Source of the DNA: an uncultured bacterium
GTDB lineage: Bacteria > Krumholzibacteriota > Krumholzibacteriia > LZORAL124-64-63
DNA: 64,000 bases
Assembly: GCA_903912525.1 (NCBI GenBank)
Contig: CAIWHK010000063.1
Location: 1-64,000 of the forward strand
Reading direction: 5' to 3'
A model generated the notes under the pieces. The model ran no database searches. It was not told the DNA's origin and worked only from the letters and a program-made list of their open reading frames with translations. Below are positions 47,221 to 53,916 of the stretch, in pieces (the stretch's first letter is position 1; each line of letters opens with the position of its first letter). Made by a program: the position numbers and the translations under genes.

Positions 47221-47250
47221 TTGCGCCAACATGATGAAATATGCTACCCT
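47221..47250 (+). promoter_or_regulatory. Candidate promoter of the C25 protease gene
   Basis: TTGCGC (47221-47226), an 18-base spacer and TACCCT (47245-47250) in an unusually AT-rich stretch. The match to consensus is moderate. Confidence 0.35.
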
Positions 47251-47345
47251 TACAGAGGCACCCGGAGCGCACGGACGCGCCCCGTCGCGGCGGGAGCCAG
47301 ATATACCCTGCCGCCCCCATCATCATTTCGCACCGGAGGCCGTCC

Positions 47346-50300
47346 ATGCATCGCCCCTGCAAGGGCTACGCGCCCCTGTTGTTGTTCCTTGTTGCCATCG
47401 CCGGCGCACCCGGCAATGCCACGGCCGCGGCGCCTGCCGGAGAAGTCATCCACGAAGGCCGCTTCGACGCCGCGCAGTTGCGGTGGGTGGCGCAGGCCGA
47501 CGGCAACGTTGCCGCCGAACTTCCGGACACGCGCCTGGTCCCGGTGCCGGGACGCGCCATGCTGCCGAACCGCGAGATGCTGCTGCTGGTGCCGGCCGAT
47601 CGCCGCGTGGCGGGCGTCGTGATCGAACCGCTGTCGACGTCGCTGATGAAGGTGCCCGGGCAGATGGCCCTGGCCGCGGACGTGACGACAAGTTCGGGCG
47701 GCCGGCTCGGCGCCGCCGACGTGGCCGCTGCGCTGGACAAACGCGCGACGACGGGCGAATGGGTGGCCACGTGGTCGACGCACCTGTGGCGCGGCTACCA
47801 GCTGCTGGCCGTGGCGGTCACGCCGCTGCGCCCGCTGGCCGGCGATGCCGGCGCCTGCGAATTCCTTTCCGACTACGCGGTGCGCGTGGTGTGGGCCGAT
47901 GGCGGCGCGCCCGATGTCGCCCAGCGCGAACGCCTGGTGCCGGGCGAGGCCGAGGACAACCGCCAGGTGCTCGCGCGCCTGGTGGCCAACCCCGAGGCCG
48001 TTTCGGCGATGCGCCGCGAGGACGGCGCCCTGGTCAGCGCGCCCGCCGGCTTCACGCCGGACAAGACCCCCAGCCTGACCGGCAGCCCGGTCACCTGCCT
48101 GATCATCACCAGCAGCGCGCTGGCCCCCTCGTTCCAGGTGCTGGCCAACTACCGCACCGCCCGCGGCATGCCCACGGTGGTGGCGACGCGCGAGTACATC
48201 GCCGCCAACTTCCGCAACGGCGCCGACATCCAGGAAACCATGCGCATGTACATCCGCGACGCCTACACGAAGTGGGGCGTGCAGTACGTGCTGCTGGGCG
48301 GCGACTCGGACGTGCTGCCTCCGCGCTACATCGACAACACGCTCTACCCGCCCAACAGCTTCACGTCCATCCCGTGCGACCTGTACTTCGCCTGCCTGGA
48401 CGGCAACTGGAACGCCGACGGCGATGCCTGGTACGGTCAGCCGGTGAAGTACGACAAACCGGGCGACAACGTCGATTTCGCCTCCGAGGTCTACATCGGC
48501 CGCGCGCCGGTCAGCTCGGCGACCGATGCCGCGACCTTCGTGCAGAAGGTCATCAACTACGAGTCGTTGCCGGCGGGCACCGCGTGGCCGAGCCGCACGC
48601 TGTTCGCGGCCGAGGTGCTCTTCCCCGAGGACTGGGCGCCGGGCGACCAGATCCTGCTGGACGGCGCCGGCTACGCCAACGAGCAGGTCACGACGCTGAT
48701 CCAGCCCTGCACCGACCTCCAGGTGCTGCGGATGTACCAGACCGACGCGGTCTACCCGCGCGACCTGTCACTGACGCGCGCTGCCCTGATCGACTCGCTG
48801 AACGGCGGCAACTACGGCATCGTCAACCAGATCGGGCACGGCTATTTCTTCAACATGTCGGTCGGCGACGCGAATTTCATGACCACCGATGCCGACAACC
48901 TGGTCAACGGCACGCACCAGTTCTTCCTGTTCGGCCTGAACTGCGCCTCGGCGGCCTTCGACAACAGCTGCCTGATGGAGCGTTTCGTGCAGAACCCGGA
49001 CGGCGGGGCCGTGTGCGCCCTCGGTTCGTCCCGCGAGGCCTTCCCGACCGCGGCCAACTCCTACCAGCAGGAGTTCTTCCGGAACTTCTACTGCGTCGGC
49101 GAGCACCGCCTCGGTCGCCTGCAGATGCTCAGCCGCCTGCCCTGGCTGGCCAACACGGTCGACAACTACCTCGACCGCTGGACCTACGAGAACTACACGC
49201 TGCTGGGCGACCCCGCCCTGGCCCTGTGGAGCGCGGCCCCGCGCACAGCGACGGTGACGGCGCCGACGAGCATCGCCGCCGGCCAGCGAACGGTTAGCGT
49301 GACGGTGACTGTGAGCGGCGTCGCCGTGCAGGGCGCCACCGTCTGCCTGGCCAAGTCGAACGAGGAACTCGTCTACGGAACCACGGATGCGACCGGCGCG
49401 GTGTCGCTGTCGGCTCTCCTGCCGAGCGCAGGCACGGCGACGTTGATCGTGACCGGGCACAACCTGGCGACGACAACGCGCTCGATCCCTGTGACGCTGA
49501 GCGGGCGCTACCTGAAGATCACCGGCATGCCGTTCGTGGACAACGGCACGGGCGGCAGCATCGGCAACGGCAACGGCGTCGTCGACGCCGGCGAGCGCAT
49601 CGCTTTCACGCCGACCTACATCAACTCGGGCACGACCTCGGCCACGAGCCTGCGCGGCGCGCTGACGACCACCGCAGTGGGGGTCACGGTCGTGACCACC
49701 AGCGTCTCGGTCACCAACGCCGCCGCCGGCGCCAACACGGCCGCGACCGCGCCCATCCTGGTCGATTTCGCCAGTTCCATGCCCGACGGCTACCCGGTAA
49801 CCTTCAAGTCGGACGCGTACTCCGGCACGACGCACTGGTACTCCGAGTACACGGTGCCGATCAATGCCCCCCAGCCCGAGGTCACGAGCCTGGACTGGCA
49901 GGACGCCGCGTTCGGCAACGGCAACGGGATCCTGGAGAACGGCGAACGGGTCGCGATCACCGTCGAAGTGAAGAATTTCGGCGTCGGGGCCTCCGGCACG
50001 CTGACCGGCCGCCTGCGGACTGCCAGCCCGAACGTGACGGTGCGTGACTCGGTGGCCACGTGGTCGTCCCTGGGCCTGCTCGGGCACAACACGGCCGCGA
50101 CCACGTTCTCGCTGTCGCTGGTCGACACCGCTGTCGCCGGGCCCGCCTGGGTCGTGCTGCAGGACGGCTATGGCCGGAAGGTTCGCCACGACTTCACGCT
50201 GGGTCGGCCGGTACCGCCCACCCAGCTCGAGGCCGGCACGTCCCTGGGGCCCGACTCCATCGAACTGAGCTGGCTGCCATCGGCCAGCCCCGACGTCTAC

Positions 50301-52175
50301 GGCTACAACATCTACCGCGCCGCCGTGCTGGCCGGCCCGTACGCGCGGGTGAACACGGATGTCGTGGCCCGTGTCTCGTCATACGTCGACACCGGATTGC
50401 CGCTGTTGACGCCGTTCCATTACCGTATCGTGGCGGTCGACTCGTCGCGCGTGCCCAGCACGTATTCGGCGACCATCAGCTGTTCGACGGCGCCGGCGGA
50501 GATGGCCGGGTTCCCGGCGCCGTTCGACGGCGAGACCAGCGGCCCGCTGGCCGTGGGCGACATCGACGGCGACAACGACCTGGAGATCGTCCTGGCCAGC
50601 AGCCAGGTCTACGCCTGGCACCACAACGGCACCGAAGTGCGCGACGGCGATGGCGTGGCGCTCACGCTCGGTCCGTTCTCGAATTTCGCCGACGGGACGC
50701 TGCTCGAGTTGGCGGCCGTGACGCTGGCCGACCTCGACGGCCTGCCGGGCGCCGAGATCATCGTCAGCGAGCGCAGCCCGGTGGCGCAGATCCACGTGTT
50801 CAAAGCCAACGGCACCGAGATGCCCGGGTGGCCGCGCCCGTTCAACATGTCGACGTTCAACTGGGCGGCGCCCGCGGTCGGGGATATCGACGGCGACCAC
50901 CTGCCCGAAGTGGTGGTCCACACGCTCAACGGCGTGATCTGGGCCTGGAACGCCGACGGCACCGAGGTGCGCGACGGCGACGCGAACGCGGGCACGCAGG
51001 GCGTGCTCTATGTTCGCGAAGGCGCCCAGTGGGAATGGTCGCGCAGCGGCCCGACGCTGGTCGACCTCGATCATGACGGGGCCCGGGACATCGTCTTCGG
51101 CACCAAGAACGACGCCACCGGCATCAAGCGACTGATGGCGATGAAATGGACCGGCGCGTTCCTGCCCGGCTTCCCCAAGACCATGAACGGCGGCATCAAC
51201 GTCGACATCGCGGCCGGCGACGTCAACCGGGACGGCGTGGTCGAACTGGTGACCTATGACTCCCAGCGGTATGTCTACGTCGTTCGCGAGGACGGAACCG
51301 ACTACCAGGGCTTCCCGGTACGGACGCCGTACACCGCCAGCAACGATTGGGCGAGCAGCCCGGCGCTGGCTGACCTGGACGGCGACGGCAAGCTCGAGAT
51401 CATCTACACGCCGAACGCCACGGGCCTGAACTCGAAGATCGTCGTGATCAGCACGAACACGACCGACGGCACCTCCGGCCAGGTGAAGGCCGGCTGGCCG
51501 GTCGACCTGCCCGGCAGCTCCGAGGCCAGTCCGGTGGTCGGCGACCTCGACGGCGACGGCGTGCCCGAGATCGTCCATGGCATCGGCGGCGGCGACGTGG
51601 GCGCCCCCTACAACCTGTACGTCTACCACGCGAACGGGCAGCCGATGAGCGGCTTCCCGATCACGCTGACCGGTCCGGTGCGCACCTCGGCGGTGATCAC
51701 GGACATCGACCACGACCTCGACGTCGACCTGGTCTACGGCGGCTGGGACTTCCTCTGCCACATCTGGGACCTGCCGTTCGCCTACAACGCCGGCAAGGTG
51801 CCCTGGCCCACGTACAAGGGCGACATGAAGCGCGACGGCGTCTACTCGGCGCCCGGCGTTTCCGGCGTGGACCCGCGCCCACTGGTGCCCGCGGCACCGG
51901 TGGCGCTGGACCGGCCGTACCCGAACCCGTTCAACCCGTCGGTCACGGTGCGGCTGTACCTGGACTCGGCCCGCAACGTGACGCTCGGCGTCTACGATGT
52001 CCGCGGGCACCTGGTGCGCTCGCTTCACGAGGGACCGGCTGCTGCCGGCTGGCGCACGGTGGTGTGGGACGGACGCAATGACGCCGGCCTGGCCTCGGCC
52101 AGCGGCGTCTATTTCCTGCGGGCCGAGAGCCCCGGCGCCCCGTCGGTCACGCGGAAGATGATGCTGGTCAAGTGA
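47346..52175 (+). CDS. Giant secreted C25 (gingipain-like) cysteine protease
   Basis: 1609 residues. Signal peptide (about 1-28), an N-terminal propeptide-like region, then a peptidase C25 core: VQYVLLGGDSDVLPPRYID, H498 in NQIGHGYFFN and C533 in FGLNCASAAF (35 residues apart, as in gingipains). After it come beta-sandwich regions, a fibronectin-III-like module near 970, about seven FG-GAP/VCBS-type repeats with D-x-D-G-D loops (VGDIDGDNDLEIV, LADLDGDGKLEII and others) likely forming a calcium-binding propeller, and the FlgD/T9SS-like domain (NPFNPSVTV, RSLHEG, VWDGRNDAG, SGVYFLRA). The start follows GGAGG. Probably a surface-anchored or released endopeptidase. Confidence 0.9.
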   Translation: MHRPCKGYAPLLLFLVAIAGAPGNATAAAPAGEVIHEGRFDAAQLRWVAQADGNVAAELPDTRLVPVPGRAMLPNREMLLLVPADRRVAGVVIEPLSTSLMKVPGQMALAADVTTSSGGRLGAADVAAALDKRATTGEWVATWSTHLWRGYQLLAVAVTPLRPLAGDAGACEFLSDYAVRVVWADGGAPDVAQRERLVPGEAEDNRQVLARLVANPEAVSAMRREDGALVSAPAGFTPDKTPSLTGSPVTCLIITSSALAPSFQVLANYRTARGMPTVVATREYIAANFRNGADIQETMRMYIRDAYTKWGVQYVLLGGDSDVLPPRYIDNTLYPPNSFTSIPCDLYFACLDGNWNADGDAWYGQPVKYDKPGDNVDFASEVYIGRAPVSSATDAATFVQKVINYESLPAGTAWPSRTLFAAEVLFPEDWAPGDQILLDGAGYANEQVTTLIQPCTDLQVLRMYQTDAVYPRDLSLTRAALIDSLNGGNYGIVNQIGHGYFFNMSVGDANFMTTDADNLVNGTHQFFLFGLNCASAAFDNSCLMERFVQNPDGGAVCALGSSREAFPTAANSYQQEFFRNFYCVGEHRLGRLQMLSRLPWLANTVDNYLDRWTYENYTLLGDPALALWSAAPRTATVTAPTSIAAGQRTVSVTVTVSGVAVQGATVCLAKSNEELVYGTTDATGAVSLSALLPSAGTATLIVTGHNLATTTRSIPVTLSGRYLKITGMPFVDNGTGGSIGNGNGVVDAGERIAFTPTYINSGTTSATSLRGALTTTAVGVTVVTTSVSVTNAAAGANTAATAPILVDFASSMPDGYPVTFKSDAYSGTTHWYSEYTVPINAPQPEVTSLDWQDAAFGNGNGILENGERVAITVEVKNFGVGASGTLTGRLRTASPNVTVRDSVATWSSLGLLGHNTAATTFSLSLVDTAVAGPAWVVLQDGYGRKVRHDFTLGRPVPPTQLEAGTSLGPDSIELSWLPSASPDVYGYNIYRAAVLAGPYARVNTDVVARVSSYVDTGLPLLTPFHYRIVAVDSSRVPSTYSATISCSTAPAEMAGFPAPFDGETSGPLAVGDIDGDNDLEIVLASSQVYAWHHNGTEVRDGDGVALTLGPFSNFADGTLLELAAVTLADLDGLPGAEIIVSERSPVAQIHVFKANGTEMPGWPRPFNMSTFNWAAPAVGDIDGDHLPEVVVHTLNGVIWAWNADGTEVRDGDANAGTQGVLYVREGAQWEWSRSGPTLVDLDHDGARDIVFGTKNDATGIKRLMAMKWTGAFLPGFPKTMNGGINVDIAAGDVNRDGVVELVTYDSQRYVYVVREDGTDYQGFPVRTPYTASNDWASSPALADLDGDGKLEIIYTPNATGLNSKIVVISTNTTDGTSGQVKAGWPVDLPGSSEASPVVGDLDGDGVPEIVHGIGGGDVGAPYNLYVYHANGQPMSGFPITLTGPVRTSAVITDIDHDLDVDLVYGGWDFLCHIWDLPFAYNAGKVPWPTYKGDMKRDGVYSAPGVSGVDPRPLVPAAPVALDRPYPNPFNPSVTVRLYLDSARNVTLGVYDVRGHLVRSLHEGPAAAGWRTVVWDGRNDAGLASASGVYFLRAESPGAPSVTRKMMLVK

Positions 52176-52342: not shown

Positions 52343-53326
52343 GTGCGCATCTGCCTGCTGACACCCCAGGATCTCGCCGCCGATCCGTTCCCGGCCGACG
52401 ACTGGCCCTGCGATCCGCGCCCCTACCTGCCGGACGCCGTCTGGCACGTCGAGACGCTGGAGAAGGCCACCTCGGTGCGGACCATCCGCCGCCTGGTGAG
52501 CGAGGGCTTCGACCTGTTCTTCAACCTCTGCGACGGCACCCCCGAGTGCGACGTGCCGGGCATCGAGGTGGTGCGCGCCCTGGAGCGCCTGAACGTGCCG
52601 TTCACCGGCGCCACCTCCGAGTTCTACGAGCCATCGCGGGTGACGATGAAGCGCGTGTGCCGCGAGCTGGGCATCGCGACGCCGGCCCATGTGCTGGCGC
52701 GGGGCGAGCAGGACGTCACGCGCGCGGCCGCGCGCCTGCGCTACCCGCTCATCGTCAAGCACCACAGCAGCTACGCCAGCGTGGACCTCAGCCGCGCCTC
52801 GCGGGTGGTCAGCGAGGCGGGACTGCGCCGACAGGCCGGCAAGATGATCCGCCGCCACGGCGCCGCGCTGATCGAGGAGTTCATCGAGGGCACCGAGTGC
52901 ACCGTGCTGATCGCCGAGGTGCCCGGACGCCCCACCCGCCCGCGCGCCTACCCGCCGGTGCAGTACGTCTTCCCGAAGGGCGAGACCTTCAAGCACGAGA
53001 AGCTGAAGTGGGTCGACTACGACGGCATGACCTCGGGCCCGGTCACGGACCCGCGGCTGGCCAGGCGCCTGCAGGACGAATCGGCGAAGCTGTTCGTGGC
53101 GCTCAAGGGCGCCGGTTTCGGAAGGGCCGACATCCGCGTCGACCACGAGGGCACGCCGTGGATGCTCGAGATCAACGCCAACTGCGGCATCTATTTTCCG
53201 CCGGAGAGCTACGGCGGCGCCGACATGTGCCTGGCCCAGGACCCGGATGGCCATGTCGGCTTCACGCGGCGCCTGGTCGAAGCCGGGCTCTGGCGCCACC
53301 GGCGGCGGCGGCGCGCGAAGCGCTGA
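52343..53326 (+). CDS. ATP-grasp ligase, D-Ala-D-Ala ligase-like (solitary)
   Basis: 327 residues, GTG start after AGGAAGGG. ATP-grasp landmarks: FFNLCDGTPECDVPG, IVKHHSSYASVDLS (lysine strand), ALIEEFIEGTECTVL, and the metal site RADIRVDHEGTPWMLEINAN. It differs from the two ligases at 10.2-12.2 kb. The substrate is unknown; the family includes peptide-type ligases. It lies 35 bases upstream of the selenocysteine redoxin gene on the same strand, so the two are probably co-transcribed, perhaps in a peptide- or thiol-linked pathway; that link is speculation. Confidence 0.85.
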   Translation: MRICLLTPQDLAADPFPADDWPCDPRPYLPDAVWHVETLEKATSVRTIRRLVSEGFDLFFNLCDGTPECDVPGIEVVRALERLNVPFTGATSEFYEPSRVTMKRVCRELGIATPAHVLARGEQDVTRAAARLRYPLIVKHHSSYASVDLSRASRVVSEAGLRRQAGKMIRRHGAALIEEFIEGTECTVLIAEVPGRPTRPRAYPPVQYVFPKGETFKHEKLKWVDYDGMTSGPVTDPRLARRLQDESAKLFVALKGAGFGRADIRVDHEGTPWMLEINANCGIYFPPESYGGADMCLAQDPDGHVGFTRRLVEAGLWRHRRRRRAKR

Positions 53327-53361: not shown

Positions 53362-53916
53362 ATGCGACCGATCCGCCTCGCCCGTTTGTTGACCGTCCTG
53401 GCGCTCGCCGTCCTGGCGACTGCCTGCGGCAAGGACAAGGCCACCGACCCTGTTGTCGCGGCCATGCCCGACTTCCAGCTCACCGACCTCAACCCGAACT
53501 CGTTGACTGCGGGTGAACTGGTCTCGCCGCGCGACTACCTGCAGACGGTATCCGTCTGGTACTTCGGGCACTCGACCTGAGGCTACTGCGTTAGCCAGTT
53601 CGGCTATCTCGATTTCATGCAGGACGAGATCACGGCGGAAGGCTGGGCGCAGGACGTGCAGATCCTGGGCGTCAATGCGACCGGCCTCGAGAGCGACAAC
53701 CCCGCGGCAGTCGTGGGCAAGGACCTGCCCTGGCTGCAGGACACGGCGCCGGCCTCGGTCTGGACGCTTTGGAACGTGGAATGGCGGGATGTCGTCATCC
53801 TGGACGGGGCGAACCGCAAGGTCGGCGTCTACAACCTGACGACGCACGACCTTGCGAATCCGGCGTACTATCTGGAACTGAAGGGCATGCTGCACGCCGC
53901 GATCGCGGCGCGCTAG
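53362..53916 (+). CDS. Thioredoxin-like lipoprotein with in-frame TGA read as selenocysteine
   Basis: 184 residues if the TGA at 53578-53580 is decoded as selenocysteine (Sec73). Upstream: lipoprotein signal (LATACGK) and a redoxin strand PDFQLTDLNPNS. The TGA falls in FGHST-U-GYC, exactly where a thioredoxin-fold protein has its first active-site Cys (U-x-x-C). After it the same frame continues with strong G/C third positions through VSQFGYLDFM, VQILGVNATG and DVVILDGANRKVGVYN, ending at TAG 53914. A hairpin suited to a bacterial SECIS starts 11 bases after the TGA. Without readthrough the product would be a 72-residue stub lacking the fold. Start ATG follows GGGAG. Likely an envelope thiol-redox protein; a nonsense mutation is the alternative reading. 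Confidence 0.75.
53578..53606 (+). promoter_or_regulatory. Candidate bacterial SECIS element
   Basis: After TGA 53578-53580 a five-base stem TAGCC/GGCTA (53592-53596 with 53602-53606) closes a five-base loop AGTTC that begins 17 bases after the TGA and has G as its second base. Published descriptions of bSECIS call for a small loop about 16-37 bases downstream with G among its first two bases. An overlapping hairpin GGCTA...TAGCC (53581-53596) is also possible. Confidence 0.55.

Follow-up and report, generated by a model that had tools for sequence, protein, structure and literature searches.

The window, by which we mean the whole analysed stretch of 64,000 nucleotides, carries on its forward strand a reading frame (53362-53916) that starts with ATG at 53362, ends with TAG at 53914-53916 and specifies 184 residues if the sole in-frame TGA is read as selenocysteine (Sec). 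The product reads MRPIRLARLLTVLALAVLATAC...SVWYFGHST-U-GYCVSQFGYLDFMQDE..., and the TGA (53578-53580, codon 73), lying within a T-U-G-Y-C site, takes the first position of U-G-Y-C. Cys76, the resolving cysteine of this U-x-x-C site, is encoded at 53587-53589 on the same strand. At the other end of the protein, a signal peptide with a lipobox (LATAC; 53362-53427, forward strand) ends at the lipid-accepting Cys22, and both cysteines are invariant in 13 homologs. Just past the TGA, the forward strand also holds the core of a bacterial SECIS hairpin, UAGCC-AGUUC-GGCUA (53592-53606). A first-pass annotation of this DNA, made from the letters alone, had placed the frame, the TGA and the TAG at exactly these coordinates, had seen a signal peptide in the frame and had proposed that the TGA is decoded as Sec. 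It had also pointed to coding bias continuing past the TGA, and GC3 of the frame is indeed equal on the two sides (0.875 upstream, 0.883 downstream). The length of the open stretch is in itself weak evidence, a stop-free run of 111 codons having a chance of about 19% in this window of 69% G+C. In a crude codon comparison of four pairs, dN was lower than dS after the TGA in the proposed frame, whereas neither of the shifted frames showed this.

The read-through translation matches the NCBIfam family NF053656.1 (redoxin_TUGYCR) with E=4.5e-64 and 214.8 bits, against a curated cut-off of 100. The alignment covers the whole soluble domain, residues 35-179 being aligned to positions 1-145 of the 146 in the profile. 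We searched this profile in six frames over 80 genomes of the class; a search at the level of the phylum comes down to the same 80 genomes. Matches above the cut-off were found in 13 genomes, including the window's own, and all 13 members have exactly one in-frame stop, which is always TGA and always aligned to residue 73. The relatives come from separate assemblies, share 47-76% protein identity with the window product and are nearly invariant around the Sec site (WYFxHxTUxxCxxQFGxL). Homologs had been expected to show whether the site is kept, and they do keep it, but the cysteine anticipated at residue 73 did not appear: neither Cys nor any other sense codon occupies this position among the 13 above-cut-off members in the 80 genomes. 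Seven weaker matches to the family (L039-L045; 20-27 bits) lack an in-frame stop. Two of these, L040 and L041, were considered as Cys members of the family and rejected, since on close inspection they are ordinary W-C-x-x-C TlpA proteins. A scan of contigs returned two close relatives, both with the TGA and both from metagenome-assembled genomes, together with a Cys-containing TlpA-type protein of Sedimenticola (E ~1e-5), while a scan of viral contigs returned no relative. In most of the relatives, TGA also serves as the regular stop at the end of the gene, so that UGA does not always stand for an amino acid in these organisms. The first-pass annotation had cautioned that the TGA might be a sequencing error for TGC or TGT, from which it differs by one base, and a single assembly could hold an error of sequencing or assembly; the gene might also be a pseudogene, derived from an ordinary Cys redoxin by a nonsense mutation. 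All this is excluded for practical purposes, as is chance, by the recurrence of this TGA codon in 13 separate genomes, which span two families and eight genera, and by the coding constraint that continues after it.

Bacteria decode UGA as Sec with the help of SelB, tRNA-Sec and a hairpin. The hairpin at 53592-53606 has a five-nucleotide loop, AGUUC, which begins 16 nt past the UGA and has G as its second base, and its MFE is −8.8. A small hairpin of this kind, with G second in the loop, was already part of the first-pass annotation, and it can now be followed through the family: the apical loop AGUU(C/U) lies 16 nt from the UGA in every member. Two members (L031 and L032) keep the hairpin by way of a bulged U in the 3′ arm of the stem. 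When the 13 sequences are aligned without gaps, 83.5% of the cells of the seven-pair stem are paired and 10 cells are double-changed; none of 500 shuffles (0.137 +/- 0.040) reached the covariation score of 0.352 that this stem obtains. When the structure was slid along the alignment as a control, scores stayed at or below 0.084, with 0 to 5 double-changed cells, and an unconstrained consensus fold recovered the same helix. Covariation is needed here, since the shape of a hairpin in a single sequence says little: 47% of the UGA triplets on both strands of the window precede a loosely SECIS-like hairpin (five pairs, G-U allowed). Nor is the window hairpin on its own informative by its folding energy, which is no better than that of shuffled sequences (z −0.41). 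The evidence that goes beyond chance is thus comparative and consists of the TGA found at one codon in 13 of 13 members and of the covariation of the hairpin. The hairpin also satisfies the published constraints on bacterial SECIS elements, namely a loop of 3-9 nt, a stem of 4-16 bp, a spacing of 16-37 nt, a G at loop position one or two and an MFE of at most −7.5 (PMC13188914).

The window genome (4.29 Mb, 98% complete) is equipped for Sec insertion. It encodes SelA, SelB and SelD as well as a tRNA-Sec with a UCA anticodon, so that the check on selA, selB, selC and selD suggested at the outset turned up all four genes. Across the class, 78 of 80 genomes have SelA, as do 12 of the 13 carriers of the family. 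The remaining carrier, G047, gave no SelA match, probably owing to genome incompleteness (90% complete, 610 contigs). Two further genes of the window genome have an in-frame TGA. One of them (L024, G000:C49:3567-4481) is a Sec-containing selenophosphate synthetase, a SelD with the TGA at its catalytic position (FAKSSG-U-AAK) and a hairpin loop 17 nt past it. The other (L066, G000:C62:1907-2167), a Thioredoxin_2 protein with a signal peptide and the TGA in W-U-P-S-C, is a probable additional selenoprotein.

Could the UGA nevertheless be a true stop followed by a separate small gene, or be decoded by a near-cognate tRNA instead of tRNA-Sec? An ATG at 53617 does start a frame of 99 aa, and bacteria are known to read through UGA. 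However, the x-x-C-x-x-Q-F-G-x-L segment between the TGA and this ATG holds some of the most conserved residues of the family, and the predicted fold spans the TGA site. Both variants of this explanation are further opposed by an active-site position that suits Sec, by the covarying hairpin and by the presence of the Sec machinery, and we regard them as very improbable. Sec decoding at 53578-53580 is, by comparison, very well supported: machinery, conserved site and covarying hairpin all bear out the original proposal, and we are highly confident that this bacterial locus is a true selenoprotein gene, that it belongs to the redoxin_TUGYCR family and that its UGA 73 is decoded as Sec. By analogy with established bacterial Sec biology, SelB carrying Sec-tRNA(UCA) would bind the hairpin and thereby direct the insertion of Sec at this codon.

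The family had not been recognised as described in the first-pass annotation, which holds for the papers that we searched, but not for the databases. A literature search for the TUGYCR or UGYC motif found nothing, and a 2026 review of prokaryotic selenoproteins does not have the family under its accession or motif (PMC13188914). NCBIfam, on the other hand, names NF053656.1 'TUGYCR motif thioredoxin fold (seleno)protein', and all 13 members match this profile. The gene is therefore a well-supported new member of an already named selenoprotein family and not a discovery. The eponymous T-U-G-Y-C-R motif is itself somewhat variable, the window protein having TUGYCV, with V instead of R at the last position, and its relatives including TUSYC, TUGIC, TUGTC and GUGYC. 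The same review lists Prx-like U-x-x-C proteins and a 'Redoxin family protein' (PF08534, UxxC; HEU0032618.1) among prokaryotic selenoproteins (PMC13188914). These share with the window protein a U-x-x-C site in a redoxin fold (PMC13188914), but their Pfam models do not match it; HEU0032618.1 may or may not belong to redoxin_TUGYCR.

The window protein gave no match in Pfam and no significant match in a sequence search of the PDB. Its AlphaFold2 model, computed from the 13 family sequences, has a redoxin fold (mean pLDDT 85, pTM 0.77). In this model, Sec73 directly precedes the first active-site helix (residues 74-92), and the linker after Cys22 is of low confidence. The best PDB matches found by Foldseek are ResA and TlpA/DsbE-like proteins, with a target-normalised TM-score of 0.74 for ResA (2h1b), and AhpE of M. 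tuberculosis is also among the structural matches. TlpA, ResA and DsbE share the fold and, presumably, the membrane anchoring of the window protein, but have W-C-x-x-C in place of U-x-x-C and are only ~20% identical to it. A second difference concerns the cis-proline of thioredoxin-fold oxidoreductases, which in TlpA and ResA lies ahead of the strand that comes after the active-site region. Here, all 13 homologs have an invariant Arg142-Asp143 pair (53785-53790, forward strand) aligned to the Ile-Pro-Ser of a TlpA-type protein, which suggests that Arg-Asp replaces the cis-proline; an alignment at ~20% identity gives a placement that is to be checked on structure.

What, then, might the protein do? 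Most likely it is a periplasm-facing lipoprotein that acts as a thiol-disulfide reductase or as a peroxidase. The protein would be exported, receive its lipid at Cys22 and stay at a membrane facing the periplasm. There, as happens in other thioredoxin-fold enzymes with a U-x-x-C site, Sec73 might attack a disulfide or a peroxide and Cys76 might resolve the intermediate. Of these two activities, the peroxidase one, of a peroxiredoxin or AhpE-like kind, is a real if less probable contender. The best of the weak Pfam hits among family members are to AhpC-TSA (E 0.005) and Redoxin (E 0.00075). The structural match to AhpE points the same way, as does the invariant Arg-Asp at the cis-proline position, an arginine near the active thiol being typical of peroxiredoxins. 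On the other side, the top structural matches are of the ResA/TlpA/DsbE types, and the window protein has H-x-T-U-x-x-C where the peroxiredoxin site reads P-x-x-x-T-x-x-C/U. Sec peroxiredoxins, moreover, have T-x-x-U rather than a U-x-x-C site (PMC13188914).

A more speculative idea, which we consider rather unlikely, is that the family represents a Sec-only lineage. Its members would be lipid-anchored thioredoxin-fold proteins in which Arg-Asp stands in for the otherwise near-universal cis-proline and whose substrate or chemistry requires selenium. This idea stems from the UGA in 13 of 13 members and from the lack of a Cys relative in the 80 genomes of the class. If no Cys form exists, the family would lend itself well to studies of what makes selenium necessary.

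Taken by itself, the Sec reading extends a large and well-understood class by one member. Its practical weight lies in the fact that ordinary gene callers end such genes at the UGA, and most of the protein is lost. In addition, a covarying SECIS element and a uniform Sec site are now documented for a family that has a database entry but does not occur in the papers searched.

No conserved gene neighbour was found across all genera, and the absence of a conserved operon means that genomic context does not point to a partner. A D-Ala-D-Ala-ligase-like ATP-grasp protein is encoded just upstream in the window (52343-53326), preceded by a large peptidase of the C25 family that has FG-GAP repeats and, at its C-terminus, a FlgD-like Ig domain (47241-52175); both neighbours are retained mainly within the genus. 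In two genomes of the genus g8 and in G052, a lipoprotein gene comes next after the selenoprotein gene.
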